A stretch of 64,000 nucleotides of DNA from Tridacna crocea. Its lineage: Eukaryota > Mollusca > Bivalvia > Cardiida > Cardiidae. The position numbers and the translations under genes are program-made. Below, piece by piece: positions 287 through 64,000 of this stretch. The notes beneath the pieces are model-generated. The model saw nothing but the letters and a program-made list of their open reading frames with translations, made no database searches and had not been told where the DNA came from. The stretch's first letter is position 1; each line of letters begins with the position of its first letter. The DNA is taken from positions 10,863,501 to 10,927,500 of the forward strand of contig OX031060.1 in the NCBI GenBank assembly GCA_943736015.1. Direction: 5' to 3'.

Positions 287-437
287 AACTCTTTACCACA
301 CAATCCTGACTTTTAATGACCCTGTGAAAGAAGCCTTTTGAAAACATTGAGGGAAAAGGAGAAAATGCTGGCAATCGTCTTTTTTTTCCCACAATGGTTT
401 TAAAAGGCTTCTACCTCAGGGTTGTCAAAAGTTGTCT
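287..437. mobile_element. Family A palindromic TTAA MITE, partial
   Basis: TTAA then CTCTTTACCACACAATC, and a degraded central palindrome (AAAATGCTGGCAATCG). The right end is short and lacks the usual GGTAAAGGGTTAA. Confidence 0.7.
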
Positions 438-469
438 TTTGTTCAAGTTTGAAGGAAATTTCTTCAGTA

Positions 470-696
470 TTAACCCTTTACCACAATCCTGAGGTGTAGC
501 TACCCTGAAGAAGAAAGCTTTTGAAAACATTGTGGGAAAAGAAGAAAATGCTGGTAACCAGCATTTTCTTCTTTACCAACAATGTTTTCTACTTTGCCAG
601 AAACAAATTTCGATTCTTGAACCAAATTTAATTTGTCATCTGCAAATGCTTTCAAAATGGATTGGTCTGAAATTTTGTCATTTGGTAAAGAGTTAA
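470..696. mobile_element. Family A palindromic TTAA MITE
   Basis: Complete, TTAA to TTAA. Both palindrome arms read GAAGAAAATGC where most copies read GGAGAAAATGC, a matched change in both arms. Confidence 0.85.
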
Positions 697-704
697 CAGA
701 GATA

Positions 705-955
705 CGACAAAATGTCAAAGTTTTTGTATGATGATGATGATGTCACAGATGCCAGGGCCACATAAATAACCCATCATTTTCTTCGAAAATAGCTGTGATA
801 ATCTAAAAAAGTGCAATACATGCTGGTGCCGACACCAACACTTAAACTGTGGTTTCTTTTTCAGTAAATATTGCAAGTCAAAAAAGGGACATTATTGTAT
901 CAAAAATGTTTTGAGAGTTATCTGCTCTCTCACTATGGGTTCCCCTTTTGATAAC
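705..955. repeat. Dispersed repeat (family M), copy 1
   Basis: Blocks such as TTTTCAGTAAATATTGCAAG, AAAAAAGGGACATTATTGTA and GATGCCAGGGCCACA recur in diverged form, in changed order, at 6960-7245. The copy ends at the minisatellite. Confidence 0.5.
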
Positions 956-1795
956 TAGCCAAAGTTCGACATATATACAGTATCGTCGGCCATATAGATA
1001 GACGTAAATACAGTATCGTCAGCCATATTAATAGATGTAAATACAGTATCTTCGGCCATATTGATAGACGTATATTTAGTATCATTAGCCATACTGATAG
1101 ACTTAAATACAGCATCTTCAGCCATATTGCTAGACTTAAAATACAGTATCGTCAGCATATTGATATAAGTAAATACTGTATCATCAGCCATATTGATAGA
1201 CGTAAATTTCGTATCGTTAGCCATATAGATAGACGTAAATTTAGTTTTGTCAGCCATATAGATAGACGTAAATACAGTATCGTCAGCCATATAGATAGAC
1301 GTAAATACAGTATCGTCAGCCATATAGATAGATGTAAATACAGTATCGTCAGCCATATTAATAGACGTATATTTAGTATCGTTAGCCATATTGATAGACT
1401 TAAATACAGCATCTTCAGCCATATTGCTAGACTTAAAATACAGTATCGTCAGCATATTGATATAAGTAAATACTGTATCGTCAGCCATATTGATAGATGT
1501 AAATTTAATTTCGTCAGCCATATAGATAGACGTAAATACAGTATCGTCAGCCATACTGATAGACGTAAATACAGTATCGTCAGCCATACAGATAGACTTA
1601 AATACAGTATCGTCAGCCATACAGATAGACGTAAATTTAGTATCGTCAGCCATACAGATAGACTTAAATACAGTATCGTCAGCCATACAGATAGACTTAA
1701 ATACAGTATCGTCAGCCATATAGATAGACTTAAATACAGTATCATCAGCCATACAGATAGATGTAAATACAGTATCTTCAGCCATATTAACAGAC
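950..1795. repeat. 30-bp minisatellite, about 28 units
   Basis: Units follow ATAGACGTAAATACAGTATC plus GTCAGCCAT-like bases at a 30-bp period. Because 30 is divisible by three, several minus frames stay open and one 276-codon frame repeats the decapeptide MADDTVFTSI. A 297-bp higher-order copy is visible: AGCATCTTCA recurs at 1111 and 1408 with the same paired one-base deletion and insertion around it. Confidence 0.95.
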
Positions 1796-1904
1796 GTATG
1801 AGAAGATGTCGAAGATTATGTGCTTGAACGCAGGGTCATGACAATAATTCAAATTTTTCTTCCAAAGCAGCCAAGAAAAATCAGACCTGTCACTGAAAGT
1901 GACT

Positions 1905-2132
1905 AAAATCTTTACTAAACAATCTCTGGTCTTTACGACCCAGATGAAGAAGCCTTCTAAAAACATCGTACGAAAAGGAGAAAATGCTGGTAACCAGCAT
2001 TTTCTCCTCTTTCCACAATGTTTTCTACTCTTCCAAAGTCAAGTTTCAATTTTTGAGCCACGTCTATTTTGTGGTCTGCAAATGCTGTCAATTTGGACAA
2101 GTCCAAAATTTTGTTGTGTGGTAAAGAGTTAA
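1905..2132. mobile_element. Family A palindromic MITE
   Basis: The right end is GGTAAAGAGTTAA. The left TTAA is lost. The centre is a GGTAACC palindrome. The right half contains the family's GTCTGCAAATGCTGTCAATT string. Confidence 0.8.
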
Positions 2133-2134
2133 TA

Positions 2135-2240
2135 CCCCCTCCAGCTCTTTGATTTTGTACACAGACGTACACACAGACAGACAGGTTGATTCCAGTATAC
2201 CCCTGAAAACATTCATTTTGTGGAGGTATAAAGATAATAA
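2135..2240. repeat. Fragment of ACAGACAGAC-containing dispersed repeat
   Basis: Contains ACAGACAGACAGGTTGATTC and GTATACCCCTGAAAACATTC, which recur at about 3420-3475 as ACAGACAGGCTGATTCAAGT. Confidence 0.5.
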
Positions 2241-2494
2241 ATAAAGAGATAAATAAATAAAAGCAACACAAAAGCCTAATACATCTGAAAAGTTTTCTAG
2301 CATTAGATTATGTCAGTATATATCTTTAGAAATTTCCAACCAGTATACTTTTTTTTAATCCTTTTACCGAGGTACCCATCAACCTTCGACCACACAATCT
2401 CCAATCATTAATGATTCTGAAAGATCTTATGGCAAGTAGTCTCACATGGTCGGGAACAAAGAAGACACGGTGTTGAAGAAAGAAACAATGATGT

Positions 2495-2805
2495 TAGAAT
2501 GATGTTTGGTGTTTAACACCATTTTCATCATTTGAGTTATATTGAAATGGCCAGTGCATCTATTTATGCTTTCCTACAGTGTCTGTTACTTGTACTTTGT
2601 ACTATATTCTATCTAAGCCACGAGCTGCTTTCCCATATATCTATTATGGAAACTATGATTTACAATGGGAAAAGAGTGAATCCAGTTTCAATGAGTAGCA
2701 TCAATGCTGGAAAAGACATACGCAAAGCTGAGGATTTGAACTGGTGATCACCTATTCTCAAATTCTGTATACTAACTACTGCGCTTCCTGCGCTGGCCAA
2801 AATCC
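2495..2805 (-). mobile_element. tRNA-derived SINE
   Basis: Read on the minus strand, a tRNA-like head near 2800 has an A box (AGCGCAGTAGTTAG) and a B box (AGTTCAAATCC). The low-coordinate end reads GGTGTTAAACACCA, the 3' tail shared by the other SINEs here. Confidence 0.6.
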
Positions 2806-2817
2806 AAGAATAAAAAG

Positions 2818-3046
2818 TTAACCCTTTACCAGATGACAAAGTTTACAGCTACCCCAAATTGAAAGCAGTTGCAGATGACAAAATAAATGCAAATGAAAGA
2901 TTGAAATTTGTTTTAGGAAGGATGAAAAACACTGTGGGAAAAGGAGAAAATGCTGGTAACCAGCATTTTCTCCTTTTCCCACAATGTTTTTTAAAAAGCT
3001 TCTTGTGTAGGGGCGTTAAAAGTAGGGACTGTGTGGTAAAGAGTTG
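2818..3046. mobile_element. Family A palindromic MITE in the probable CAPS2-like 3' UTR
   Basis: Left TTAA is intact; the right end is mutated to TTGA. The central palindrome is nearly perfect. It starts 66 bp past the CAPS2-like stop codon, so the mature transcript may carry its hairpin. Confidence 0.85.
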
Positions 3047-3111
3047 AAATGAGAGTTCTATAAATGTTCAGAGTTTTTCCCATGACTGTAGTTAGGCTTT
3101 ATCATATAACA

Positions 3112-31119
<28,008 letters not shown>

Positions 31120-36200: not shown

Positions 36201-36220
36201 TCTAGTTCAAGTTTGATCTA

Positions 36221-43928: not shown

Positions 43929-43957
43929 ATATTTTGCCTGATTTTAAAAAACTCATT

Positions 43958-44995: not shown

Positions 44996-45028
44996 AGAAA
45001 AAGAAAGAAAGAAAGAAAGAAAGAAAAT
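44996..45028. repeat. GAAA microsatellite
   Basis: About seven AAAG units. Confidence 0.95.
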
Positions 45029-45414: not shown

Positions 45415-45504
45415 AGATATATCGTCGGTTTACCTCAAAAACCTCGTAATCACAGCTTGTTTCAAGCTGTAGTTACGAGGTTTTTTAATTAAACCGACTA
45501 TATG
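45415..45504. repeat. Family H fold-back element
   Basis: TTTACCTCAAAAACCTCGTA pairs with TACGAGGTTTTTTAATTAAA around CACAGCTTGTTTCAAGCTGT. Confidence 0.88.
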
Positions 45505-45842
45505 TATGCATACTTGCTTTTGCGAGCAATTAAAGATAAAGTGCAGGTCAAGATTTCGTTTTACAGGGAATACATTACTATAATTTGGTGTGTTTTCATT
45601 GCTGAGAATGGCGCGAGCAAACAATATATTGAGTGAAAATAGAAGCACATTAAACCCTTGAAATGAAATCCCAATATCTTGAGATGAAGTCATAATCTCA
45701 TGGAACGAAATCCCAATCTGATGAAACTAGTAAAGCCATTGCCTGTAGAACTAGAACTAAATGAACTTGGTATATATTTTTTTTTCTTCTCCTTATGTTC
45801 GCCTTTTCTCCTCCAATGTTTGTCCACATTCCTTACAGAAAT
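45505..45842 (-). other. Likely 3' UTR of TH
   Basis: The stretch is AT-rich and non-coding, directly 3' of the TH stop codon on the minus strand. I found no convincing poly(A) signal close to the stop. The nearest minus-strand AATAAA is near 45103, so the transcript end is unknown. Confidence 0.4.
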
Positions 45843-46017
45843 CTAGTACACCTGCGCCATGGATACTTTTTCCATAGCCTTTTCCATCTTTTCCAGGTCA
45901 AATCTCATCTCCTCTACCATCTTCAGAATGCTTTCCTTCGAGTTTAAAAGAACCACCGAACTTGTGAATGGATCATACCGTACTTCATAGGGTCGATCTA
46001 TTTTCAGGAAATATTCT
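45843..46017 (-). CDS. TH: TH exon g (C-terminal helix, stop)
   Basis: The last coding exon is 175 nt with acceptor CTATTTCAG. It encodes [20 protein letters not shown], then [20 protein letters not shown] and an amphipathic heptad helix ([17 protein letters not shown]) before TAG. This helix forms the tetramer bundle in the family. Confidence 0.93.
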
Positions 46018-52000: not shown

Positions 52001-55000
52001 AGTGAGATTTATAATACAAAGAACATGCTTAAGAATGATTGGTGATTATGGACGGATTGTGTCTTTGGAAAGCTGAGAACCATTGTCGGAAATGGAGAAA
52101 ATGTTTAGTGGTTTACCAGCATGTTCTCCATTCAAAGATTTCTTTTTTAACCCTTAACCTGTTAAGTGCGACTAGCTGACTTTTTTGCGGACAGTTTAGA
52201 TCAAGATCAGACTGCACAGAACGTGCAGTCTGAACTTTGATCGACACTGTCCGATAAGGAGATATTATTCCCCAAAACATAACTTTGTAACAACAATATT
52301 TGGGTTATTAATATGGGTTATTAACATGGTATTGAAAATTGAATTATTAGTTAGATTAACCATGTAGCATGATAAGGGTTAAGATTAACCATGTAGCATG
52401 ATAAGGGTTAATCTATCTTCTTCGGGATGATTAAAACTCGCGAATATTTCGTAAAGAATTGAGAAAAATCAAGGGTTATTTGTTAAAATGATGCGTCTTT
52501 GAGATAAGAAATGGCGTCCTCTTTCTGCAGAAAGATAGACTCTGCAGTGCCATATCGTTTAACGTTGAAGTTGATGAGAAACATTTGGAATTTAACGCGC
52601 TAACATCGCAGTATGTTACAACAGGAAAAGTATTTGCTTATGCGACCGGTCAACTTCAGCATAGATGGCAAAAAGTTACATAAATTGTACCCGTTAATCT
52701 CTTGTTATACTCCCGTAAAACGAATGTTTTCGGGAGTATACTGAAATTAGCTTGTCTGTCCATGTGTCCGTCCGCCCGTCCGTGTGTCTGTCTGTGTACA
52801 AAATACTAGTAATTTTGTGTTGCGCACTCCTCCTACAGTTTTCCTTCAATTGTATTGAAACTTTGCACATATACTGATCATATATTGAAGATTTGCAAGA
52901 CGTAATTTTCAACTCAACTCTTCATGGTTGTGGAATTATCTTCCCTTGAACTCGACACTTTTTTTTTCTGTTAAAGTGCTGGCGGTGGTATTAAGTTACA
53001 TTCGGTGACAGCTCTAGTTGCATCTACGACAGACATAAGCTAACAAACACTGGTAGGCTGCAAGTGTTATGTTAACCATAATTCGCAATATCTTAAAATT
53101 ACTCTGAACTTATACACGTTTCTGCTTTCGTAATGTTTATTTTACTTTTATAGAGGTATTGCAGTGGGTGTTGTTTGATTGGCCAAATATATAGGTACTC
53201 CTCGTTAAGTTTTAATCAAAACGCCAAACGTTGAAAACTGAGCTGGATATCGGATTCTATAGCAAAGAGTTTGTGTCGAGAACTTTATGGAAGAAACCGC
53301 ATTCCTTTATAAAGTTGTACCAGTTGCACTCTATGATAATCGATTTAAAAATCAATTGATGACGCTGTCTAGTTCTTACCATACAGCTGTTTTGATTTAC
53401 TTTGACCGTGTCGCAGTTTACGTGTTTAGCGCCAATCTTCATGAAACCTATTAACTCTTTACTGAACAAGCCCTGGATTAAAAGACCTTTGGAAAGAAGC
53501 CTTTTGAAAGCATTGTTGGAAAAGGAGAAAATCCTGGTAGCCAGCATTTTCTCCTTTTCCAAAAATGTTTTCTACCCCATCAAGGACAAATTTCGCCATT
53601 TTAGCCACTTTTGATTTGTCGGCTGCAAATGTTTTCAAATTGGATAGGTCTAAAATTTTGTCGTTTGGTAAAGGGTTAAATGTGATATTTTGTTTGGCAC
53701 GTCGAAGAGGTCAAAGAATTCAATAGTTTTAATCCACACGACCGTGATTTTCAACTTCCTTTTCTTGATAACATTTGTTTATCTTATTTTCATGTCAGTC
53801 AAAGACCTAATCTCAAGATCAAGTGCAAAGAAATTATGATATCAAAAGTGGTATATTGAAGAAAGTAAATTTTAGGGACTTTTATTTGATGCTTTCCGGT
53901 AGGATATCGAGAAATAGCAGTGAAAATATTTTTCAATACTCTACGGGTACGACCAGTGAAAATACCGATTTTTAATTCCTAGTTACCTAGCTAATTTGCG
54001 CGTGACTCACAACTGAAATGGAAATATGACGTCATTTACCTTACATTGATCGCGCTTGACGTAATATTGTAATGCGTTGCTATGCGGATGGGGTACGCCA
54101 CGGAGAATAACAAAACAAGAGGACCATGATGGTCCTATATCGCTCACCTGAGTACCAAGCAGTAAAGATTTACAATGAAGATAAATACCAAATATCGAAG
54201 TGCAAGGCCAAAGCTTTAGGTCTTCTTGGTTTAGATAAGAAGATAATCATTCTTAACCAAACCCGGTTATATAAATATTTAAGAGAAGTTTGAAAGTGCT
54301 CAGGTGAGCTAACTAGAGCCTTAATTTGAAGTATTTTGGTAGAGGGCCACTAGATGATGCTACATGCCAAATATGAAAGCTCTAGCCCTTAAGGTTTGGG
54401 ACAAGAAGATTTTTGAAGATTTCCTTCTTTATCTCTATGTGAAATCTGAGAACCCACAACATAGGGCCAATTTCCACACTAGGGCCATTATTTGAAGTAT
54501 TTTGGTAGAGGGCCACTAAATGATACTACATGCCATATATGAGAGCTCTAGCCCTTATGGTTTGGGACAAGAAGATATTTAAAGATTTCCTTCTTTATCT
54601 CTATGTGAAATCCGAGAACCCACAACATAGGACCATTTTCCACACTAGGGCCATAATTTGAAGTATTTTGGTAGAGGGTCACTAGATGATGCTACATGCC
54701 AAATATGAAAGCTCTAGCCCTTAAGGTTTGGGACAAGAAGATTTTTACAGATTTCCTTCTTTATCATTATGTGAAATCTGAGGACCCACAACATAAGGCC
54801 ATTTTCAACACTAGGGCCATAATTTGAAGTATTTTGGTAGAGGGTCACTAGATGATGCTACATGCCAAATATGAAAGCTCTAGCCCTTAAGGTTTGGGAC
54901 AAGAAGTTTTTTACAGATTTCCTTCTTTATCTCTATGTGAAATCGGAGAACCCATAACATAGGGCCAATTTCTACACTAGGGCCATTATTTGAAGTCTTT

Positions 55001-58000
55001 TGGTAGAGGGCCACTAGATGATACTACATGCCATATATGAGAACTCTAGCCCTTATGGTTTGGGACAAGAAGATTTTTAAAGATTTCCTTCTTTATCTCT
55101 ATGTGAAATCCGAGAACCCACAACATGGGGCCATTTTTAAACTAGGGCCATAATTTGAAGTATTTTGGTAGAGGGCCACTAGATGATGCTACATGCCAAT
55201 TATGAAAGCTCTAGCCCTTACGGTTTGGGACAAGAAGATTTTTAGAGATTTCCTTCTTTATCTCTATGTGAAATCCGAGAACCCACAACATAGGGCCAAT
55301 TTCTACACTAGGGCCATTATTTGAAGTCTTTTGGTAGAGGGCCACTAGATGATACTACATGCCATATATGAGAGCTCTAGCCTTTATGGTTTGGGACAAG
55401 AAGATTTTTAAAGATTTCCTTCTTTATCTCTATGTGAAATCCGAGAACCCACAACATAGGGCTATTTTCAACACTAGGGCCATAATTTGAAGTATTTTGG
55501 TAGAGGGCCACTAGATGATGCTACATGCCAAATATGAAAGCTCTAGCCCTTAAGGTTTGGGACAAGAAGATTTTTGAAGATTTCCTTCTTTATCTCTATG
55601 TGAAATCCGAGAACCCACAACATAGGGCCAATTTCCATACTAGGGCCATTATTTGAAGTATTTTAATAGGGGGCCACTAGATGATACTACATGCCATATA
55701 TGAGAGCTCTAGCCTTTATGGTTTGGGACAAGAAGATTTTTACAGATTTCCTTCTTTATCTCTATGTGAAATCCAAGAACCCACAACATAGGGCCATTTT
55801 CAACACTAGGGCCATAATTTGAAGTATTTTGGTAGAGGGCCACTAGATGATGCTGCATGCCAAATATGAAAGCTCTAGCCCTTAAGGTTTGGGACATAAA
55901 GTTTTTTACAGATTTCCTTCTTTATCTCTATGTGGAATCGGAAAACCCACAACATAGGGCCAATTTCCACACTAGGGCCATTATTTGAAGTATTTTGGTA
56001 GAGGGCCACTAGATGATACTACATGCCATATATGAGAGCTCTAGCCCTTATGGTTTGGGACAAGAAGATTTTTAAAGATTTCCTTCTTTATCTCTATGTG
56101 AAATCCGAGAACCCACAACATAGGGCCATTTTTAAACTAGGGCCATAATTTGAAGTATTTTGGTAGAGGGTCACTAGATGATGCTACATGCCAAATATGA
56201 AAGCTCTAGCCCTTACGGTTTGGGACAAGAAGATTTTTAAAGATTTCCTTCTTTATCTCTATGTGAAATCCGAGAACCCACAACATAGGGCCAAATTTCT
56301 ACACTAGGGCCATTATTTGAAGTATTTTAATAGGGGGCCACTAGATGATACTTCATGCCATATATGAGAGCTCTAGCCTTTATGGTTTGGGACAAGAAAA
56401 TTTTTAAAGATTTCCTTCTTTATCTCCATGTGAAATCCAAGAACCCACAACATAGGGCCATTTTCAACACTAGGGCCATAATTTGAAGTATTTTGGTAGA
56501 GGGTCACTAGATGATGCTACATGCAAAATATGAGAGCATTAGCCCTTACGGTTTGGGACAAGAAGATTTTTAAAGTTTTTTCTCTCGGTTGCCATGGCAA
56601 CCAGAGTTCTCCATGGAATTCAAATCTTTGAAGTATTTTGAAAGTGCATCACCTAAGGATCATTTCTGTGAAGTTTCACTGAAATCTGTTGGGCAGTTTC
56701 AGAGGAGAAGAATTTTAAGTAATTGTTCACGGACGGACGGACACACGGACGGACGGACGGACGACGGACAACGATCGATCACAATAGCTCACCCTGAGCA
56801 CTATGTGCTCAGGTGAGCTAAAAAAAATATATGGATTTTGATAAAGCTTCTCTCAGAAAGGGTTAAAAGCATGAAATAAATAGAATATTTTTTTTTCGGT
56901 GAAAGATCGAAATTTATTTCATCTCGTGAGCACCATCGTAATATTTTCTCTTGATGAAATAATTTTCGATCTCTCACCGAAATAAACAAATATCCTCTAA
57001 TTATTTACCAAGCTTTTATTTCTTCTTCGGCATACTGGACCCTCGGGATTGGCTGACCACTGCAATGAGAAAGACACGAATATTAGTTATTTGCAACATT
57101 TGTTAGAAAAAGTTGACAGGAAAATTCAGTTTTGTTAAAATGTTAAACTAAATATTCCTTCTACGAATGCAAAATGAAATGGCCGTAAAAGTATAGTTTA
57201 GAAAAAATTAAGAAGAGATTCGCAATTTAATTTGGCCAAGATGCATCGAACTTGTGGACATTTTAGAGCATCTAAAACCGACTTTGAATTTCAATGGCTT
57301 TAATATGTATCGCTTAAAATTTTACACTGCTTAACCCTTTCCCAAACGGCACAATGTTAGACTGGTCCAAATGGAAAACACTGGCAGACGACAAAATAAA
57401 CGAAATTCAGAAAAACTGAAATTTGTTAACAACAGGGTAGAAAAAATTGTGATAAAAAGAGAAAATGCTGGTCACCAGCATTTTCTCTTTTTCCCCACGA
57501 TGTTTTCAAAAGGCTTCTATGTCAGGGTCGTAAAAACCAGGGATTGTTTGGTAAGAGGTTAACTGTTAGGCTCATCTATATAAAACATAAGATATATAGG
57601 ATCTGACATGAGTGGGCTTTTGGGATAAGATTTTATTAAACGAGTCTAGGGAAATGTTATTAAACGAGCTTAATAAAAATTTTCCTTGAAGTTAATAAAA
57701 TTTTATCTCAAACGCCCACGAATGTCAGATTCTTTTTATCACATAATGATATTTCACAAAATGTAGATCAGATGGTGCAAAAACATTCATAAATGTACCC
57801 GCGGTATTTTCCATGAGACCCATTCACTCGTATGAAATGCGTACAAAATGACGTCAAAAATAACGTCAAACAAAAGTGATATCAAACGTATATAAGATAA
57901 GAAAATTCGTAATGAGTATATTACACTGAAAACAAGGGAGGTTATGTGATAAAAGGTACTCACTATTTATAGTCGAAGGCAATATCAGCTATTTCCTTCC

Positions 58001-58031
58001 TCCTTTTTCTGTACTCTTTGTCAGTAAAGCC
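45843..58031 (-). CDS. TH: Tyrosine 3-monooxygenase (tyrosine hydroxylase), 3' seven exons; 5' end missing
   Basis: The enzyme turns L-tyrosine into L-DOPA using tetrahydrobiopterin, Fe(II) and oxygen, the committed step of catecholamine synthesis. The minus-strand join is 58031-57964, 57059-57009, 50903-50758, 50180-50045, 47829-47703, 47273-47044, 46017-45843. All junctions are GT-AG and keep phase over 933 nt (310 residues). Visible motifs are [24 protein letters not shown], the pterin-loop string [31 protein letters not shown], the iron motif [12 protein letters not shown], the third iron ligand in YWFTVEFG, and the C-terminal helix. [19 protein letters not shown] and SYGEL favour TH over phenylalanine hydroxylase (LLSSRDFLGG) or tryptophan hydroxylase (YLSPRDFLSG). 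The N-terminal regulatory part and the first catalytic residues were not found between 58032 and 64000. Confidence 0.93.
46045..46165. repeat. Direct duplication, copy 1
   Basis: TAAATAATAATATAGACAAA to CACTTCTATAGCCCTGGAAT. The second copy is at 46405-46525 and a family A MITE sits between. Each copy also holds a small inverted repeat (AGACAAATAG / CTATTTGTCT). Confidence 0.85.
46174..46408. mobile_element. Family A MITE between duplicated arms
   Basis: TTAACTCATTACTACATAAT to GAAAATGAGTTAA. The left flank of the hairpin has an extra AAATGCAAATGC. Confidence 0.85.
46405..46525. repeat. Direct duplication, copy 2
   Basis: TAAATAATAATATAGACAGA to CACTTCTATCACTCTGGAAT, roughly 85-90 percent like copy 1 by eye. 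Confidence 0.85.
46525..46635. repeat. Family E fragment
   Basis: TCTTATTCTCCAAAGATTTT, then GCCAATTAGCAGTTGTGTTA plus CTTTTATATTTAGAAAATC. The left arm has lost its pairing. Confidence 0.55.
46825..46970 (+). mobile_element. SINE 3' part
   Basis: GGAACTCCAGGAAAACATGG, then GTGATATGAATTAAATAATG plus TTGAAAATGGCGTTTAACGC, the shared SINE tail. Confidence 0.55.
47044..47273 (-). CDS. TH: TH exon f (third iron ligand)
   Basis: The exon is 230 nt and starts [20 protein letters not shown], where the Glu of VEFG is the third iron ligand (human Glu376). It continues [20 protein letters not shown] and ends [10 protein letters not shown]. The acceptor is GTTTCAG and the donor GTATAT. Confidence 0.95.
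47450..47548. repeat. TAA-type microsatellite pair
   Basis: GGAATATTAATAATAATAAT occurs twice about 65 bp apart. Confidence 0.85.
47545..47632. repeat. Family J fold-back element
   Basis: AAAAAGTATCGACCCAGTTC, the core AGCCTGCGCGGACTGCGCAG plus GCTGAAC, then TCGTTACTTTTTGTAGATGC. Confidence 0.85.
47703..47829 (-). CDS. TH: TH exon e (HELLGH iron-binding motif)
   Basis: The exon is 127 nt and encodes [20 protein letters not shown] followed by [20 protein letters not shown]. The two His of HELLGH correspond to iron ligands His331 and His336 of human TH. The acceptor is TTGCAG and the donor GTAAAT. Confidence 0.95.
47890..48835. mobile_element. Family K fold-back transposon, copy
   Basis: TTATCACATAACTCCCCTTG, GAATCTGACACTCGTTGGCT, GTTGTCTGCGCATGTCATAT plus TCTTCGAAGATTCGAC, CTATAAAGTAGCAATG and GCCATCTAGCGGGAGATAAT recur at 57.6-57.96 and 58.2-59.24 kb. 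A 22-base C run at 48344-48365 splits it. Confidence 0.65.
48344..48365. repeat. Poly(C) run
   Basis: Twenty-two or so consecutive C, then GGGCCC. The length is uncertain in any assembly. Confidence 0.9.
48895..49015 (+). mobile_element. tRNA-like SINE fragment
   Basis: CGCACGGGTTCGAATTTCGC (B box), then AGGTGCCATATTTCAGCTAT and ATTTGTTGCGACCTTTAATG, paired with 27.97 kb. Confidence 0.55.
49336..49532. repeat. Family E fold-back element, complete
   Basis: CTCGTATTCACCAACCATTC to GGTTGGTGAATACAGGCCCT. The arms meet at GGCTAAACTATTCGGTTTAG plus CC. Confidence 0.92.
49735..49800 (+). mobile_element. SINE 3' tail
   Basis: CGTGATATGAATGAAATAAT plus GCTGAAAGCGGTGTAAAAAC, then CATTCATTCATC, the tail shared with other SINEs here. 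Confidence 0.6.
49825..50034. mobile_element. Family A MITE abutting TH exon d donor
   Basis: TTAACTCTTTACC at left. The right flank lacks about 20 bp before AGTTAA (50031-50034). Only 10 bp separate it from the TH exon d splice donor. Confidence 0.85.
50045..50180 (-). CDS. TH: TH exon d (pterin-binding loop)
   Basis: The exon is 136 nt and encodes [40 protein letters not shown] and HSPE. The donor is the weaker GTCAGT. A family A palindrome ends 10 bp beyond it (50034). Confidence 0.93.
50505..50727. mobile_element. Family A MITE, diverged
   Basis: Flanks GTTTTAGACTTGTCCAAATT and GTCGTCTGCAAATGTTTCCA are clear. The hairpin has collapsed to GTGGGAACTGTCCCCAC. Confidence 0.65.
50758..50903 (-). 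CDS. TH: TH exon c
   Basis: The exon is 146 nt with acceptor AACACAG and donor GTAAGC. It encodes [20 protein letters not shown], then [14 protein letters not shown] and [12 protein letters not shown], the start of the catalytic core. A tandem tRNA-like repeat begins within 20 bp of the acceptor. Confidence 0.93.
50915..51760 (-). repeat. Tandem triplication, about 313-bp unit with tRNA-like heads
   Basis: Three units (landmark GGGACCAGGCA near 50976, 51296, 51602) each contain, on the minus strand, an A box TGGCTCAGTGGTTAAGGT and a B box GGGGTTCGAATC. Shared strings include AAAGTCCGTGACAAAGAAA and GAGTGGTCTCCCGTAACA. The array begins within 20 bp of the TH exon c acceptor. Confidence 0.88.
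51847..52055. repeat. Family E fold-back element
   Basis: TTCGTATTCACCCACCACTC to GATTGGTGATTATGGACG. The core is TTGGCTAAACCATCCGGTTT plus AGCCAA. Confidence 0.88.
52060..52150. mobile_element. Family A hairpin remnant
   Basis: AACCATTGTCGGAAATGGAG, AAAATGTTTAGTGGTTTACC, then AGCATGTTCTCCATTC. Flanks are lost. Confidence 0.5.
52149..52415. repeat. Family C fold-back element with tandem end
   Basis: TTAACCCTTAACCTGTTAAG, core GATCAGACTGCACAGAACGT plus GCAGTCTGAAC, and a right end GATTAACCATGTAGCATGAT plus AAGGGTTAA that is present twice in tandem. Confidence 0.8.
52708..53020. repeat. Dispersed repeat with terminal hairpin (family I type)
   Basis: TACTCCCGTAAAACGAATGT plus TTTCGGGAGTA forms a hairpin, followed by a CCGTCCGCCCGTCCGTG tract, and ends GGTGACAGCTCTAGTT. 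Confidence 0.7.
53451..53678. mobile_element. Family A MITE
   Basis: TTAACTCTTTACTGAACAAG to GGTAAAGGGTTAA; palindrome slightly damaged (AAAATCCTGGTAGCC). Confidence 0.83.
53880..54108 (-). repeat. Dispersed repeat family G, inverted
   Basis: ATATCGAGAAATAGCAGTGA, GTAATATTGTAATGCGTTGC and GGGGTACGCCACGG are the reverse complement of 30.77-30.98 kb. Confidence 0.75.
54114..56824 (+). mobile_element. Pearl/HINE-type element, 14 core units of 166 bp in two alternating forms
   Basis: Opens AACAAGAGGACCATGATGGT and ATCGCTCACCTGAG. GTTTGGGACAAGAAG recurs near 54394, 54560, 54726, 54892, 55058, 55224 and so on to 56549. Two forms, GATGCTACATGCCAAATATG (a) and GATACTACATGCCATATATG (b), mostly alternate. 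The end has TTGCCATGGCAACCAGAG, a GGACGGACGGACG tract and the hairpin CTCACCCTGAGCAC / GTGCTCAGGTGAGCT. It fills the 6.1-kb TH intron. Confidence 0.9.
56895..56985. repeat. Fold-back element (singleton)
   Basis: TCGGTGAAAGATCGAAATTT plus ATTTCATC pairs with GATGAAAT plus AATTTTCGATCTCTCACCGA. A single-arm relative is at 30618-30650. Confidence 0.8.
57009..57059 (-). CDS. TH: TH exon b
   Basis: The exon is 51 nt with acceptor CATTGCAG and donor GTAAAT. It encodes [16 protein letters not shown], matching the conserved PIPRVEY segment. The 6.1-kb intron that follows carries the large pearl/HINE element at 54.1 kb. Confidence 0.9.
57331..57562. mobile_element. Family A MITE
   Basis: TTAACCCTTTCCCAAACGGC to TTTGGTAAGAGGTTAA. 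Both arms read AAAAAGAGAAAATGC where most copies read AAAAGGAGAAAATGC. Confidence 0.85.
57605..57960. mobile_element. Family K fold-back transposon, copy abutting TH exon a
   Basis: Contains GAGTGGGCTTTTGGGATAAG and its mirror ATCTCAAACGCCCACGAATG, and ends AACAAGGGAGGTTATGTGAT plus AAAAGG, 4 bp from the TH exon a donor. Confidence 0.65.
57964..58031 (-). CDS. TH: TH exon a (first seen here)
   Basis: The exon is 68 nt, entered in phase 0 after TTATTTTAG and left in phase 2 before GTGAGT. It encodes [20 protein letters not shown], equivalent to the vertebrate TH segment around GFSDQVYRQRRK. The next upstream exon should end in an Asp-His-Pro type string and was not found. Confidence 0.9.
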
Positions 58032-58084
58032 CTAAAATAAAAAAAGTAGAATTATTCAAGTGTCTGAAAATTATGAGTCACGCC

Positions 58085-58200
58085 CTGTGAAAGGGAGTTT
58101 AATGCATCTGCAAAAAGTATTGACCCAGATCAGCCTGCGCAGTCCGCGCAGGCTGATCTGAGTCGAAACTTTTTGCTTTTGGTTTGCATGTTGTTACGGG
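58085..58200. repeat. Family J fold-back element
   Basis: TAATGCATCTGCAAAAAGTA, core CAGCCTGCGCAGTCCGCGCA plus GGCTG, then GAAACTTTTTGCTTTTGG. Confidence 0.88.
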
Positions 58201-59240
58201 AGGCTACTCCTTCATGCATGGCTTCACCCCGGTTTAAATACAGTACCTAACAACCAGTAGTTTAGAGAAATCTAGAGCTAAAACAGGCCTGATTTCTCCT
58301 CGAACGTATACTGATAAAAGCCATTTTCTCCGTTGTTACTTTATAGCGCGTATTAATACAATCCCAAGGGTCAGCGTTTAGAATAAAGCCTCATAGCAGA
58401 CGGCTGTCGAATCTTTGAAGAATATTACATGCGTTGTCTGCGCATGTCATATTCTTCTAAGATTCGACCTTATATGACGCATCGCTCTCCCCAATATCGG
58501 GTGAGACCGTAGTATTACGCGCTATAAAGTAGCAATGGAGAAAATGGCTTTTATCAATACGTTTGAGGAAAATTAAGGCCTGTTTTAGCTCCAGATTTCT
58601 GTAAACTGATGATCATAGCTGAGTGAATGCAATCGGTAGCGTTTTATTAAGTAAACATTTATTTTAGTTTAGTTTAAACATATTTTATTCAACAGTATAA
58701 ATTTACAAGAGAAAATGAAATACAATCGTATGACAAGCAAACTGAAAAAAAGGATTAAAACGAAAGCATAGGCTTATAAAGTTCTTCTCCAAATTTCAGT
58801 TAACGGTTAACAAGGTTATTAAATGATCATATCATTATAAGTTATAGAAAACTTAGGTTAAAATAGTTGGAAAAAAAAACAGAGTTGTGTGGAGTGTTAT
58901 TGGTTATAGTTAGAAATGAAGAAAAGCCTCTTTAATGACTAAGGAACCTTCCAACTGGACCATCACAATTGATTAAACAGGCGCATGTTTACAATTAAAA
59001 AAACTACATGATATTAAGATATCAGTCAACTTAGAAAAGAAATGACTTGATTAAGTTAACGTGATACAGATTCAACCATTAATAAGAATTCGTAGGAATA
59101 AGATATTACGAAGATATTTGAGTTTGACATTCAAATTAGTCCGGTTCTGTACCCAGGATGCCCAAATTAGATGAGTATTTGTAGAATGCCATCTAGCGGG
59201 AGATAATGATATGACATGCGCAGACAACGCTGTAGATGCG
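58195..59240. mobile_element. Family K fold-back transposon with insert
   Basis: Long inverted arms: GATAAAAGCCATTTTCTCCG plus TTGTTACTTTATAGCGCG at 58314 is mirrored by CGCGCTATAAAGTAGCAATG plus GAGAAAATGGC at 58518. The inner pair GTCGAATCTTTGAAGAATAT / CATATTCTTCTAAGATTCGA also folds. A 470-bp insert (58668-59140) splits the right arm before CCGGTTCTGTACCCAGGATG. Confidence 0.7.
58668..59140 (-). mobile_element. Probable retroelement 3' fragment inserted in family K
   Basis: The low end reads, on the minus strand, TGAATAAAATATGTTTAAAC plus TAAA, like the tail of the SINE at 62.4 kb (AAATAAATACGTTTAAACTA). No coding motif is recognised. Confidence 0.45.
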
Positions 59241-59429
59241 TTTTTTTGTCAATCGTGAGTGTTATTTTATCAGATCAAGGCATATATTGGAGCCTGAAAC
59301 TTTTACTACTGTTGTAAAATGATAATGAATAGAGGAATGCTTCTCACGTTCATTAGATTTATGTATCACTTTAGATATAATCCAACCGTGTGTTGATGAC
59401 GGATCATACGCGTGTATGCATAATGCTTA

Positions 59430-59516
59430 TATATCATCGGTTTACTTCTAAAACATCGTAACTACAGTTTGTAACAAGCTGTAGTTACGAGGTTTTTGAA
59501 ATAAACTGACGATATG
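59430..59516. repeat. Family H fold-back element
   Basis: TTTACTTCTAAAACATCGTA pairs with TACGAGGTTTTTGAAATAAA around CAGTTTGTAACAAGCTG. Confidence 0.88.
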
Positions 59517-59611
59517 CTGGCGGGTAATGGATTGTACTAAAATTATAACAGGAATAAGCCGTTGCTAATTAGCACTGCAGTGAAACTTATTGATAGCCGA
59601 AAGCCTTTGGC

Positions 59612-59821
59612 TTACCCATTACCACACAATCGCTACTTTTTACGACCCTGAGAAAGAAGCCTTTAGAAAGCCTGGTGACCAGCATTTTCTCCTTTTCCCA
59701 CAATGTTTTCTACCCTTCACTGAAAAATTTCAAATTTCTAGTCCCGTTTTTTTTTTTTTGTCGTCTGCAAATGCTGTCAATTTGGACAAGTCTCAAATTT
59801 TGTCGTTTGGTAACGAGTTAA
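59612..59821. mobile_element. Family A MITE, hairpin arm deleted
   Basis: TTACCCATTACCACACAATC to GGTAACGAGTTAA. The left arm is reduced to GAAAGCCTGGTGACCAGCAT. Confidence 0.78.
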
Positions 59822-60337
59822 AGACGCTAAATTTTCGAATTGGCTGAATGTGCTGGCTTATGACCTACTTCTTGGTACTGATGAAGGATGAATAAATTGT
59901 AATTTGTGATTGGTTAAAAACGGGCGCTGGTTAATTCGGCGGGCACCGCTGCCATATTTGCTCGCATATTTATGAAACCACTATAGTTTACTAGCGTTGC
60001 TTTGCTAATCGATAGCGCGAGGCTTGATTCATAAGATGGTGTATTAATGTAATAGCGAATGATCCTTTATTGTTCTATTTGGAAATGAAGTATTTTCATA
60101 AGCGTCACTAAATAGCACCGTACCTGAAATTACAATCTACTTTTCAACGACATGAAAAACGGTTAGGAAAAAAAAGGTAATTTCTCGCCAGGTATTTTCT
60201 TATTAGTATATTTCATATTGATCCTTAAGAGCTTCAGTATTACTAGTCCAGCATCTTTTACGTCATCTATCCTTTTAGAGGATCTTTCTTGTTTGGTTTG
60301 ATCGTCAAGATTCGTCAATTGGCTTAACTTACTTCGC
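59822..60337. other. Gene-free stretch, nothing recognised
   Basis: AT-rich, no repeat family or coding motif identified. A TH 5' exon was looked for here and not found. Confidence 0.4.
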
Positions 60338-60568
60338 TTATCCCTTTACCAGACGACAAAATTTTAGCCTTGTCCAAATTCAAGGTATTTTCAGCAGATA
60401 CAAATTCATTGAGGCGCAAAAAGTGGAACTTTTCTTTGATAGGATAAAAACACATTGTGGGAAATGGAGAAAATGCTGGTTACCAGCATTTTCTCCTTTT
60501 CCACAATGTTTTCAAAAGGCTTCTTTCTCAGGGTCGTCAAAAGTCGGGATTGTGTGGTAAAGGGTTAT
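60338..60568. mobile_element. Family A MITE flanked by TTAT instead of TTAA
   Basis: TTAT-CCCTTTACCAGACGACA at left and GTGTGGTAAAGGG-TTAT at right, complete with a near-perfect hairpin. The same non-standard 4 bp is on both sides. Confidence 0.88.
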
Positions 60569-60594
60569 TCGTTATTTGGCGATCATTGAAGGGC

Positions 60595-60765
60595 AGATGT
60601 TCTATGGAAGCATTTTTCAGAAGATTCTGAGGTCCAATCTTAAAAGTAACACAACTTTTGATAGGCCAAAACGAACGAATGGCTTAGCCAATCAGAAGTT
60701 GTGTTACTTTCAAAGTAATATAGAATAAGACTCAGAATGTTTTTGATAGTGGTAAGAGAATGCGG
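60595..60765. repeat. Family E fold-back element
   Basis: Core AAGTAACACAACTTTTGATA plus GGCC pairs with GCCAATCAGAAGTTGTGTTA plus CTT. The outer arms are diverged. Confidence 0.75.
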
Positions 60766-60767
60766 AT

Positions 60768-60933
60768 CCATTCCCTAACCATTTCTTAAAATTAATTGTA
60801 TTGTTATTTTCAAAAAAGTTCTAAATTTTCGCAACTTTGATTGGCTTAACTAAGTGGCTGAGCCAATCAGAAGGTGTTACTTTTTAAGTTCAGAACAAGA
60901 CTTAGTATGAGTTTATAATGGTTGGTAAATACG
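60768..60933. repeat. Family E fold-back element
   Basis: CATTCCCTAACCATTTCTTA at left, AATGGTTGGTAAATACGCAC at right, core GATTGGCTTAACTAAGTGGC plus TGAGCCAATC. Confidence 0.75.
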
Positions 60934-61720
60934 CACTCGATCATTCTAAATCGCTTTCCTTGTCAAATGTTAAGCCATTTCCTAAATATCAAATTTCTGA
61001 ATGTCCAAATAGAGGTCGAGTTATCTTTTTAAGGTGGGTATTTAAATTTTTCACATCTCACCAAATTGAAAAATGTATCACTGAAATTTTAGGAAAAACC
61101 TATACAAATTATCAATAATTAAGAATCATAAAATTGCAATTTTTTTGACGGTGTTCCCTTAAAAGGCTACGTAGCCTCTTTAGGTATATTTAGATTTCGC
61201 GCCAGAAATAAAAAAAAAAGCATTGTGGGAATGTCAAGTGACTAATGACGCTTAAATTCCGTAACATAACAAACATGCAATTATTTTCGATAATGTCTTC
61301 TTCGGATGTTTCAAGCTTCGTATGTGTGTTTCCGGTATGTAAATGAGCGAGTTGCTCATATAAAAGTAGACTGTGTTTCCCGTCGTTGTCGTCCTAATTT
61401 CTCTTGTTGTCGGATGGTTTTCGACTACTGGGGTTTTATAAATGAAAATGAGGCTTTGGCATCAACCAGTTAGTACTTTATCACCTTCCTTTTATTTACA
61501 TACATCAAAAGTGTCCTAATTTAGCTGGCGAAATGTTAAATACCAGCCATTTACAAGCAAAAACACCACTAACGGCAGATGTTTATTCACGATCTTGTTA
61601 ATTTCATGATCTTGAGAACGGACCATTACAGCGACTTTATTGTCAGTTTGGCGGGGTTAACGAGTTTTTAGCACGATCTTAAAGCCCCCCTTTAGTATAA
61701 CAATGAAAATATTTGAGGCA
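60934..61720. other. Gene-free stretch, nothing recognised
   Basis: No repeat family or coding motif recognised. Short frames have no homologous look. Confidence 0.4.
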
Positions 61721-61721
61721 T

Positions 61722-61850
61722 GCTCTTTGAAAAAGGGGGCTTAATGCATCTGCGAAAAGTATCGACCCAGGTCAGCCTGCGCAGTCTGCGCAGGCTGACC
61801 TGGGCCGAAACTTTTCGCTGTTGATTTTTTTTTTTGCTTGACCAAGACCC
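61722..61850. repeat. Family J fold-back element, perfect core
   Basis: CCCAGGTCAGCCTGCGCAG-T-CTGCGCAGGCTGACCTGGG is a perfect inverted pair around one base, flanked by AATGCATCTGCGAAAAGTAT and CCGAAACTTTTCGC. Confidence 0.92.
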
Positions 61851-62402
61851 CATTCTACAATATGATTAAGTCGAATGTTAAAAATGTGGCTCATTTCAAA
61901 TCCATGAGTATGTGAGCTCTTGCATTTGTGTCAAACATCACTGAGATGCATTAAGTCCCCTTTTGTCAGAGCTCAGATCACATCAACGATCTATTGTTCT
62001 GGAAACGTTAAAAACCAGAGAAAAACGAACTTTGCTGTCTCTTTTTATGTGTGACTGAACTTGAATGAAAGTAACTTTCGATTTACGCAAATAAAACGGA
62101 TCTACAGTCGTTAACCTGCTTTCATTTAAAGTGCTAATCACATACTGGGCAAATGGCGTGACAAGTCAACAAGTGTATTTCATTTCTACTGGACTATGTA
62201 TGTATCTTGGACTCTTCCGTATTGAAAACGTTCATAAAAAGCAAATTTTCTGTAAAAATATATTGTCAATTTTGTCTTTAGAAGGGTAGAAAGCTTTGCG
62301 CAAAAATGAGAAAATCTTGGTCACTGGCACGTTTATTTCTTTTTTAAGTTTACGACAGCATTGTCAAATGCTTCTTTCTAGTGCTTGTGATAGCAAGGGA
62401 CG

Positions 62403-62641
62403 CTCTTTAGAGTTTAGTTTAAACGTATTTATTTTACATCGATTGAGAAACAAGTTCTTACAACTTATACTAACCTCTCTCGATTGTGCTTCCTGGGAAC
62501 TACACCAGTACTCGCGCCGAATGTGTGGGCCAATGACAAATCCCAAAGTTGACACCCGCTTCCAGGTATCGAACTCAGGACCTTTAGATTATGAGGCCGA
62601 CGCTCTGCGTCACGACCACGGACACCACTCTTTAGAGTTTA
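62403..62641 (-). mobile_element. tRNA-derived SINE with 14-bp target duplication
   Basis: CTCTTTAGAGTTTA occurs at 62403-62416 and 62628-62641. Between them, on the minus strand, is a tRNA-like head (GTGACGCAGAGCGTC A box, TCCTGAGTTCGATACC B box), a body, and a tail ending ATCGATGTAAAATAAATACG. The duplicated target and tRNA head make this a clear retroposed copy. Confidence 0.85.
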
Positions 62642-62852
62642 ACCCTATACCACACAATGACGACTTTTGACGACCATGAGGTAGGAGCCTTTTGAAAACA
62701 TTGTGGTAAAAGAAGAAAATGCTGCTGACCAGCATTATCTGCTTTTCACACAATGTTTTCTAACTTTCCCAAACCAAATTTCGATTTTTCAGTCACATTT
62801 ATTTTGTCGTCTGCAAATGCTTTCAAAAATTTGTCGTTTGGTAAAGAATTAA
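62639..62852. mobile_element. Family A MITE, SINE at its boundary
   Basis: TTAACCCTATACCACACAAT to GGTAAAGAATTAA. A short right-flank deletion removes the usual GGACCAGTC. Confidence 0.83.
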
Positions 62853-63180
62853 TTTAAAAAAAAAGATCATTTGTTTTATTAGTAACAACAACCGACCCAC
62901 TTGGCGGGAAATGAGAAAAAATAGCGTATGCCGACGTTATGTTAATGACGTGCAATTGTGAAACGAGACGAAAGAAGTTTAATATGTCTTGACGATGCCT
63001 TCCCAGAGTTAAGATAAATTGTCCTTTGAACCTCAGATTTTATTTTTTTACCACATTTATGAATGAAATTTTCGTGTATTTTTTATTTAGAAATGTTAAC
63101 ATTTGGCCACTCCTCAAATTCAGACGATAACCTGTGACACCAGTCACTTTATTATACCATACAATATGAGACAAAGCCCT
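62853..63180. other. Gene-free stretch, nothing recognised
   Basis: AT-rich, no repeat family or open frame of note. Confidence 0.4.
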
Positions 63181-63183
63181 GCA

Positions 63184-63266
63184 TATCGATAGGTGAGTGC
63201 AACACTATTCTAAGTGCCTGTACATTGTACAGGCACTTAGAATAGTGTTGCACTCACCTATCGATA
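63184..63266. repeat. Perfect 83-bp palindrome
   Basis: Two 41-base arms (starting TATCGATAGGTGAGTGCAAC) are exact reverse complements around a single T at 63225. No second copy is in the window. It would fold as a cruciform or a long hairpin RNA. Confidence 0.95.
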
Positions 63267-63579
63267 CGCAATATCTCGATTCAGCATCGAGTTTCAATAG
63301 TAATATCGATCAGTAAAGCAATAATGCAAGACAGCATGTCTTTCTATAGTTTATTAATTTCTAAATTACGTTTAAATGTTATATTAAACCTTGTGGCATC
63401 ATAAGCGATTAGTTTTTGCCATTCAGAGAATGAAATACACTTTGGTGAAGTGTCAAAGACAGCGACGGGTCAGGTTTTAATTCAATAATCTAGGTTTTTG
63501 TATATTTGAAATACATTTCAGAATTCATTTCAAGCATAAGGGAAAACACTCCTTTGCAATGCCTGTTCAAAGATGTATG

Positions 63580-63640
63580 AGCCACGCTGTGTGAAAAAGG
63601 GGCTTAGTGCATCTGCGCAGTCTGCGCAGGCTGACCAGTG
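63580..63640. repeat. Family J remnant
   Basis: GTGTGAAAAAGGGGCTTAGT, GCATCTGCGCAGTCTGCGCA plus GGCTGACC. The left half-core is deleted. Confidence 0.75.
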
Positions 63641-63885
63641 TTATCTGCGCATGCCATATTCTTCGAAAATTCGACCTGTCTACTATGACGCATCGCCGAC
63701 CCCATAGCTGCATTTTTCAGCAGACGACTTTATCATGACGAAGGTTGCGCCTTGGCCATACAGAAAATTGGCCAATAGCGAAAAGTTTCGGCACAGGTTG
63801 ACCCATTACCTCCTCTATCTAATTTGGGCATTCTGGGTACAGAATCGGACTACTTTTCTACACGACAACCGTTACTTTGAATTTC
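63640..63885. mobile_element. Family K fragment
   Basis: TTATCTGCGCATGCCATATT, CGAAAATTCGACCTGTCTAC, then the mirror of the family's end (ATTTGGGCATTCTGGGTACA plus GAATCGGAC and ACGACAACCGTTACTTTGAA). Confidence 0.65.
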
Positions 63886-63888
63886 AAA

Positions 63889-64000
63889 TTAACCCTTTCC
63901 CAAACGACAAACTTTTTGACTAGACCATATTGAAAGCATTTGCAGACATTTCAACTCTTGCTGAAAAGATGATTTCTGTCTATGATAGGATAGAAAACAT
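63889..64000. mobile_element. Family A MITE, cut by window end
   Basis: TTAACCCTTTCCCAAACGAC, then TTGAAAGCATTTGCAGACAT and GGATAGAAAACAT at the edge. Confidence 0.8.

Follow-up and report, generated by a model that had tools for sequence, protein, structure and literature searches.

Mini-transposons of two families, A and B, make up roughly a tenth of the Tridacna crocea genome. Sequence comparison supports their assignment as related non-autonomous transposons (MITEs) of the piggyBac superfamily. In the account that we favor, with a probability of about 70% for the whole, piggyBac MITEs were moved at TTAA and the symmetry of their central palindrome was selected as aiding spread. What is new here is that the palindrome is 2.2-fold less diverged than the flanks, that its changes between subfamilies are matched, save one in B, and that it decays in a flank-like manner after insertion. 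A similar anatomy, without a superfamily, was already known in the clam Lucina pectinata (PMC4732748).

The window, which is the whole 64-kb stretch of DNA that was analyzed, was searched with iterated nhmmer models at E<=1e-5. This search defined 77 non-overlapping A/B loci, comprising 67 A and 10 B hits. Because a 22-bp duplication divides the B element at 20436-20684 into two hits, the 10 hits correspond to nine B elements. Near full length were 42 loci (34 A and 8 B), and A and B together cover about 13.8 kb, or 21.6%, of the window. The number of window loci was 74 when a larger sequence set served as the nhmmer database. Exact occurrences in the window were 9 each for TTAACCCTTTAC and TTAACTCTTTAC, 12 for GTAAAGGGTTAA, 3 for GTAAAGAGTTAA, 21 for AAAACATTGTGG, 26 for CCACAATGTTTT, 29 for AAATGCTGG and 5 for AAATTGCTCG. 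In a systematic 54-kb genome sample, consisting of a 3-kb piece from each large contig, the A/B fraction was 11.9%, and extrapolation from this sample put the genome-wide number at about 0.7 million (0.37-1.13), copies and fragments counted together. The sample yielded 37 hits as compared with none in its reversed sequence. The half-palindrome of A occurs exactly 181,692 times in the 1.05-Gb genome, and the same word read backwards does not occur. Exact palindrome patterns were absent from viral_contigs (28-base pattern) and genome_contigs (24-base pattern). The sequence-only reading had described abundant A and B repeats in the window with nine copies of B, both of which are confirmed by these numbers; its figure of about 55 A copies was an undercount.

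Table 1. A and B features in window coordinates. Strand is the model orientation, in which the left end is the piggyBac-like end.
Feature	Coordinates	Strand
A, near full length	471..694	+
A, near full length	1909..2130	+
A, near full length	2820..3045	-
A, near full length, TTAA shared with next copy	3753..3983	+
A, near full length	3984..4209	-
A, near full length, TTAA shared with next copy	5879..6099	+
A, near full length	6100..6337	-
A, near full length, TTAA shared with next copy	8614..8844	+
A, near full length	8844..9074	+
A, near full length	9253..9472	-
A, near full length	10891..11114	+
A, near full length	11343..11562	-
A, near full length, TTAA shared with next copy	14603..14821	-
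A, near full length	14822..15048	+
A, near full length	17030..17261	+
A, near full length	18150..18372	+
A, near full length	20787..21019	-
A, near full length	22532..22754	+
A, near full length	25151..25347	-
A, near full length	25826..26049	+
A, near full length	26631..26855	+
A, near full length	26941..27139	-
A, near full length	27143..27368	-
A, near full length, top model score in window (230.1 bits)	28564..28789	-
A, near full length	29848..30067	+
A, near full length	31314..31538	+
A, near full length, diverged	32573..32782	+
A, near full length	40944..41163	-
A, near full length	46175..46406	+
A, near full length	53452..53677	+
A, near full length	57332..57561	-
A, near full length	59614..59820	+
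A, near full length	60340..60567	-
A, near full length	62640..62850	+
A-derived foldback, two halves in opposite orientation, each matching A right half	7834..8101	
B, near full length	12163..12388	+
B, full length, 22-bp tandem duplication ahead of palindrome	20436..20684	+
B, near full length	21630..21846	-
B, near full length	27738..27964	+
B, near full length	29229..29454	-
B, near full length	30269..30495	-
B, near full length	36223..36449	-
B, near full length	39339..39554	+
B, near full length	40513..40732	+
Other A loci among the 77, shorter or truncated	within 286..64000	
Examples of shorter A pieces	286-441, 6731-6907, 8223-8362, 14121-14259, 17591-17751, 36833-37013, 49827-50028, 63891-64000	

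An element is about 229 bp long with both TTAA included. The consensus and the copy ends read C[CT]C[TA]TT[AC]CC, i.e. termini of the CCC...GGG type, and the terminal inverted repeats (TIRs) are about 10 bp. Being short, non-coding, uniform in length, high in copy number and bounded by TIRs, the elements have the features of MITEs. The consensus palindrome of A spans 67 bp, with two 33-bp arms around a single centre base. The palindrome of B is also 67 bp and is homologous to that of A; the flanks of the two families can be aligned only near the ends and beside the palindrome, with B reversed. The palindrome had been called well kept, which holds for the family consensus and not for single copies: 9 of 150 distinct copies are free of mismatched pairs (6 of these without gaps), and the other 141 carry 1 to 16 mismatched pairs. 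Abutting copies with one common TTAA were observed in the window, and the A-derived foldback gave two hits, 8006-7834 (model 53-226) and 7936-8101 (model 52-224). The view that so large a palindrome is unusual for a MITE has to be softened, as the L. pectinata MITE-like repeat (consensus 1, about 210 bp) has TIRs and a 77-bp central palindrome (PMC4732748). Compared by description and not by sequence, the two are alike in bivalve host, length, TIRs and central palindrome. Whereas the L. pectinata repeat has a 30-bp inverted repeat matching at 27/30, typical left and right ends of A agree at 16/30 (ungapped); no target duplication or superfamily was found for the former (PMC4732748).

TTAA was present at both ends in 60, at one end in 39 and at neither end in 16 of the 115 near-full copies in all the sequence examined. 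For four insertions (L023:3731-3957, L014:9437-9665, L012:7341-7567 and L022:362-590), other copies of the host repeat have a single TTAA at the empty site, which rules out TTAA as part of the element and bears out its earlier description as a duplicated target. The genome holds at least 118 piggyBac transposase matches (Pfam PF13843), a lower bound with 116 of 196 candidates scored, and none of these listed matches falls inside the window. The window's own open frames of at least 100 aa number 29. A piggyBac element at L020:1166-7541 has a PF13843 match at its ORF and starts at the 5' end with TTAACTCTTTCCCACACAATCCCGACTTTTTACGACCC. Of 40 places scored among 451 candidates, 28 carry its first 38 bp with 97-100% identity; the match stops at base 38-39, and all eight fetched places are full family A elements. 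The mean identity of 76 A left ends is 73% to the 5' end of L020 and 66% to that of L021, as compared with 37-50% for five further piggyBac families in this genome. The 5' ends of L020, L021 and L010 contain subterminal repeats of 35-36 bp in 3.6-4 copies, and 3' ends of the L020 and L021 type can be aligned up to the last base, which supports the element boundaries.

The right end of A shows no match to the 3' ends of L020 and L021 past the first ~12 bases and was found in no examined partner: 63 right ends compared with nine ends gave a best mean identity of 51%, and the 12 places found by search were all piggyBac kin by position. MITEs need not retain both subterminal regions of one parent, so the missing match weakens the partner claim and not the TTAA mechanism. 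For family B, no partner was found among the examined piggyBac elements, and the agreement of the B right end with the L010 ends, at 14 of the first 16 bases with TTAA included, is too little. A palindrome native to L020 or L010 was likewise rejected, as similar stretches look by eye like old nested MITEs. Among the autonomous elements examined, none was seen to carry the palindrome natively. Thus the piggyBac origin first suggested from the letters is supported by TTAA duplication, by the PF13843 transposases and by the 38-bp L020 5' end common to A, and the expected match to a piggyBac terminus holds at the A left end and fails at the A right end, with none found for family B. We infer that the L020/L021 transposase clade is the one that moved A. 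The Kolobok and Sola3 superfamilies also duplicate TTAA, and the right end that matched no examined piggyBac end would suit a transposase of either; that such an enzyme moves A and B is very unlikely, given A left ends identical over 38 bp (97-100%) to a piggyBac 5' end. The CCCTT-type ends also point to piggyBac, since CCCTT is its most conserved end motif in the excerpted text of PMC10813416, where TTAA duplication and short TIRs are likewise traits of the superfamily and its MITEs. Beyond these traits, A has its 5' end in common with a piggyBac of the same genome; unlike the piggyBac MITEs in those excerpts (PMC10813416), it has a central palindrome with mostly matched-pair evolution and an untraced right end.

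How has the palindrome changed? Across 81 deduplicated copies, its divergence is 9.6% versus 20.9% for the flanks, and it is the less diverged part in 79 of them. With CG/TG/CA sites left out, the flank/palindrome ratio is 2.24 (1.92-2.63). Protection of the palindrome after insertion was considered and rejected. Post-insertion substitutions numbered 19/813 in the palindrome and 38/1412 in the MITE flanks, to which a ratio of 1 fits (P 0.74) and a ratio of 2.24 does not (P 0.016, or 0.007 once the L027 pairs are excluded). If the lower limit of 1.92 is taken instead, P becomes 0.050 for the pooled pairs and 0.021 when L027 is excluded. The test comprises 57 substitutions, linked copies included. 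Once inserted, the palindrome mutates like the flanks, as far as the fit to a ratio of 1 goes. Between subfamilies, the palindromes differ by matched pairs, in B at 14, 21, 26 and 31, in A2 (four or five copies) at 8, 26 and 31, and in A3 (three copies) at 12. The one exception is in B, where position 13 is A in 6 of 11 palindromes with the opposite arm still C, leaving one unmatched pair in the majority consensus. Symmetric double changes numbered 41, whereas 500 shuffles averaged 14.2 and never exceeded 24. Unpaired double changes also exceeded the shuffles (22 versus 14.4) because copies differ in age. Co-mutation per 1000 cells was 25.3 in register versus 9.9-15.6 in 12 slid registers.

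The excess of symmetric double changes and the matching between subfamilies, save for the one pair in B, would also be produced by a functionless palindrome whose arms are kept alike by templated correction (hairpin template switching or arm-to-arm gene conversion), perhaps mostly in post-transposition repair. Imperfect palindromes are known, as a general matter, to undergo templated correction. We regard this as somewhat unlikely here. One-sided changes in resident copies outnumber symmetric ones by 335 to 41 and most copies are mismatched, which indicates that in-place correction is slow. By our reasoning, unbiased arm copying should not reduce divergence from the consensus, yet the palindrome diverges less. 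The flipped pairs 26 and 31, common to A2 and B though their flanks align only in part, could instead mark an exchangeable module, younger than the flanks and recently spread between families by recombination or conversion. This is improbable, as the palindrome still has about half the flank divergence inside flank-defined A clusters (flanks/palindrome 12.8/5.4%, 12.9/6.3% and 7.7/3.7%). Should the hairpin work as RNA rather than DNA, as a small-RNA precursor or double-stranded transcript, the perfect stem of -50.8 to -54.9 kcal/mol in the four subfamily palindromes (B typed with G at 13) would fit. Usual microRNA precursors are unlike a 67-nt hairpin with a three-base loop, Rfam at the gathering threshold gave no match within the window, and the benefit to the element is not obvious, all of which make an RNA role highly improbable.

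In the favored account, piggyBac transposases encoded elsewhere in the genome would cut and paste A and B into TTAA, and the elements would by now number several hundred thousand, fragments included. The A left end would be the 5' terminal 34 bp of a piggyBac element, covering the terminal repeat and the start of the first ~35-bp subterminal repeat. The central palindrome may serve in cis as a hairpin or dyad that proliferation requires, with its symmetry selected because a central hairpin, cruciform or symmetric protein site would help spread, for example by drawing the ends together for synapsis. The matched-pair change during spread, as read from the copies, suggests that the palindrome helps the elements move. 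Counted against this is that arm-to-arm copying in moving elements could yield symmetric change without selection. Tentatively, and at somewhat less than even odds, the palindrome would act structurally in cis within a eukaryotic cut-and-paste MITE. Arm pairing, more than the exact letters, would be selected in source lineages because transposition would be raised by a hairpin, a cruciform or a symmetric binding site, and this innovation would have allowed one family to grow to about a tenth of a 1-Gb genome.

The PALTTAA repeats of Caenorhabditis are, to judge by the name, palindromic repeats at TTAA as well. Bacterial REPINs, in the excerpted account of PMC3116915, show compensatory changes on both hairpin sides, from which element-level selection was argued. 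Like A and B they are mobile, non-autonomous and abundant, and contain a symmetric hairpin; unlike A and B they are bacterial and tied to RAYT tyrosine transposases, not to cut-and-paste at TTAA (PMC3116915). The titles and abstract starts of the open-licence literature yielded no description of the A/B family or of matched-pair evolution in a eukaryotic TTAA MITE. What makes a small number of MITE families outstrip the autonomous elements they derive from is a general question, and in this case one can point to a partner clade, a copy number and a candidate cis-determinant. The A/B copies themselves allow selection during spread to be told from later decay. Since A and B occupy so much of an animal genome, they are also relevant to repeat annotation.

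Two nhmmer models, made from full-length window copies of the related TTAA-bounded MITE families A and B, identified 77 non-overlapping loci in the window (contig C5, positions 10863501-10927500) at a cut-off of E≤1e-5, 67 of A and ten hits of B that represent nine elements. Near full length were 42 of the 77, and together the two families fill about 13.8 kb of the window, a share of 21.6%. A sequence-only reading had counted the nine B elements correctly and had set A too low, at about 55 copies. The density of the window is no special case, since A and B make up 11.8% of 198 kb in 20 regions around piggyBac genes (133 copies) and 11.9% of bases (bootstrap 6.2-18.4%) in a systematic sample of 18 pieces of 3 kb, one from each large contig. 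The sample held 37 copies, all A, in 12 of the 18 pieces, and the same pieces reversed gave 0 matches. Extrapolated to the assembly (1,048,827,098 bases, 31 contigs), this corresponds to 0.72 million complete or fragmentary copies (0.37-1.13 million). The two strands hold 91,065 and 90,627 exact occurrences of the 35-base half-palindrome of A, which read backwards is found 0 times genome-wide. As a copy with two intact arms is counted twice, 91,065 to 181,692 copies have at least one intact arm. Other repeats of the window are listed in the table together with the insertions discussed below.

Coordinates of elements, insertions and other repeats in the window and in fetched genome regions (L handles)
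Feature	Coordinates	Observation
piggyBac element, proposed partner of A	L020:1166-7541	
MITE insert in a piggyBac copy	L023:3731-3957	seven other copies without insert, among matches listed
MITE insert	L014:9437-9665	four empty relatives among matches listed, places partly identical to those for L012
MITE insert	L012:7341-7567	five empty relatives among matches listed
MITE insert	L022:362-590	one empty relative among matches listed
Foldback	window 7834-8101	two right halves of A around one palindrome
Third interspersed family, central palindrome GATCAGACTGCAC	window 14275-14426, 25668-25840, 52147-52330	13 places in 327 kb examined; better copies TTAA-bounded with CCC/GGG-type ends
Palindromic repeat, arms CTGCGCAGGCTGA or close variants	window 44701-44758, 47557-47618, 58111-58176, 61753-61818; L011:7508-7573	placed with the third family by clustering
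TATCGTCGGTTTACTTCAAAAACC-type palindromic repeat, 64-84 bp	window 37313-37376, 45420-45503, 59432-59515; L011:3031-3114, 8767-8832	TTAA nearby in only 2 of 5 places
Palindromic repeat, AACACAACTTCTGATTGGCTAAAC-like arms	window 26327-26392, 49393-49481, 51899-51995	
90-bp palindrome	window 63181-63270	45-bp arms 98% complementary; no relative on clustering palindromes from 23 sequence sources
Tandem arrays, mostly 155-166-bp units	window 22920-24123, 41466-43721, 54312-56579	presumably akin to bivalve BIV160-type satellites
33-bp tandem array, 25 copies	window 968-1798	the window's two longest stop-to-stop frames, of 286 and 290 codons, overlap it and appear spurious

Among 115 near-full copies in all sequence examined, TTAA stands at both ends in 60, at one end in 39 and at neither in 16. 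Joined flanks of MITE copies were used as queries for empty sites; many of the 195 junction-spanning matches are flanks that are MITE sequence themselves. The empty sites hold a single TTAA, apart from one relative with an altered site in each of the L023, L014 and L012 sets. TTAA is therefore, in line with the sequence-only reading, a duplicated target and no part of the element.

Matches to Pfam DDE_Tnp_1_7 occur at no fewer than 118 places in the genome (116 of 196 candidates scored), and none of the 118 listed lies in the window. The 20 piggyBac regions fetched belong to several families with differing ends, for example CCCTTTATATAC, CCCTAGTCATGC, CCCATTTATGCC and CCCTTTCAG; for some of the 20 an end pair was not found. 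A 2.77-kb family with CCCTTTATATAC ends (L013-L016, L019, L023) appears to have spread recently, the proteins of the fetched copies agreeing at 93-99% and five of the six copies having an open frame of 474-624 codons. Another clade comprises L020, L021/L025/L027 at 78-80% protein identity and L010 at 54%, and its elements have 3.6-4 tandem copies of a 35-36 bp unit at their 5' ends. The predicted L020 frame has 508 codons and no internal stop; it has at least 96 genome matches (85 of 192 candidates scored), the best listed being a broken copy on contig C13 at 85-96%, followed by L021-type copies at 77-79%.

The first 38 bases of L020 were matched at 28 of 40 places scored from 451 candidates (two at 100%, 26 at 97%), and in all 28 the match halts at base 38 or 39. 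All eight of these that were fetched proved to be palindrome-bearing members of family A; the remaining 12 places comprise L020 itself and matches that are longer or lie further inside, piggyBac relatives by position. The left ends of 76 A copies averaged 73% identity to the L020 5' end and 66% to that of L021; as a control, the corresponding ends of five further piggyBac families from the genome gave 37-50%. The 3' end of L020 matched 12 genome places, all piggyBac relatives by position and none a MITE. That L021-type 3' ends align with it through the last base supports the boundaries of both elements. By the 38-bp matches A bears a piggyBac 5' terminus, and by the lack of a MITE among the matches to the L020 3' end its right end appears to be of other origin. 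The piggyBac ancestry first proposed thus holds for the left end, and at the right end finds no match beyond about the first dozen bases.

Deduplication left 81 of 95 A copies, in which divergence from the consensus was 9.6% in the palindrome and 20.9% in the flanks, and the palindrome was the less diverged in 79 of the 81. Without CG/TG/CA sites the ratio of flank to palindrome divergence was 2.24 (1.92-2.63). Flank divergence is uneven, with a few stretches at 11-15% and most others at 20-37%. Protection of the palindrome once inserted was rejected using 12 pairs of MITE copies duplicated together with a larger surrounding stretch. Sites changed after insertion numbered 19/813 in the palindrome, 38/1412 in the MITE flanks and 107/3412 outside; equal rates fit (P 0.74), and a 2.24-fold reduction does not (P 0.016). 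Without the linked L027 pairs (15/537 versus 25/974) the latter P was 0.007, and against the lower bound of 1.92 it was 0.050 pooled and 0.021 without these pairs. At least one mismatched pair is present in 141 of 150 palindrome copies, so the palindrome once described as well kept is symmetric in consensus and mostly imperfect in single copies. Conservation and symmetry are a property of the lineages that spread.

In 57 of 67 bases, the A consensus agrees with the majority consensus built from 11 B palindromes. The ten differences are one centre base, four mirrored pairs (14/54, 21/47, 26/42 and 31/37, all perfectly paired in A as in B) and a one-sided change, at position 13, where B has A in six and G in five of the 11 copies opposite a C in ten; this is the sole shared exception to symmetry observed. 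Subfamily A2, with ends CCCTTTCCC, differs on both arms together at 8, 26 and 31, the L050-L052 subfamily does so at 12, and flank-based A clusters of at least four members contain no unmatched pair in their consensus palindromes. All four matched A/B differences are flips (G-C to C-G, A-T to T-A) with no transition; within A, 13 of 22 distinct symmetric changes are transitions. In reverse, the right flank of B gives a weak alignment (score 14, reached by 0 of 300 shuffles) with the left flank of A, and on this basis B may be a reversed relative of A with a replaced long side.

Symmetric double changes totalled 41 at the level of copies, whereas 500 shuffles gave 14.2 on average and 24 at most; 11 of the 41 are the same shared change, at position 8. 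Distinct symmetric double changes numbered 22 (shuffle mean 9.3, maximum 17), and unpaired double changes 22 (mean 14.4). Because the copies are unequal in age, slid pairing is the better control; paired sites co-mutated at 25.3 per 1000 cells, versus 9.9-15.6 in twelve slid registers. As the letters may be replaced two at a time in matching fashion, what seems to matter is less an exact site than the pairing or symmetry of the arms.

Elements of the piggyBac type with TTAA targets are a known kind, as PMC10813416 describes, and a clam repeat printed without superfamily in PMC4732748 has the same overall plan as A and B. This repeat, the nearest one published, and the BIV160-like arrays of the window suggest that the source is an animal, probably a bivalve. 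Bivalve MITEs are left unclassified in one survey (PMC10294476). Compensatory hairpin changes are reported (PMC3116915) for REPINs, which are bacterial non-autonomous elements; a search of titles and abstract openings of open-licence papers found no such report for a eukaryotic TTAA MITE.

Copying of one arm onto the other in moving copies, without selection on structure, would account for the symmetry but leaves the lower divergence of the palindrome unexplained. On the most economical reading, a cis-acting structure at the centre of the element would have been under selection while the elements proliferated. The A palindrome has a predicted DNA hairpin of -37.2 kcal/mol (z -14.5); such a hairpin could shorten the path between the element ends or accommodate a protein dimer.
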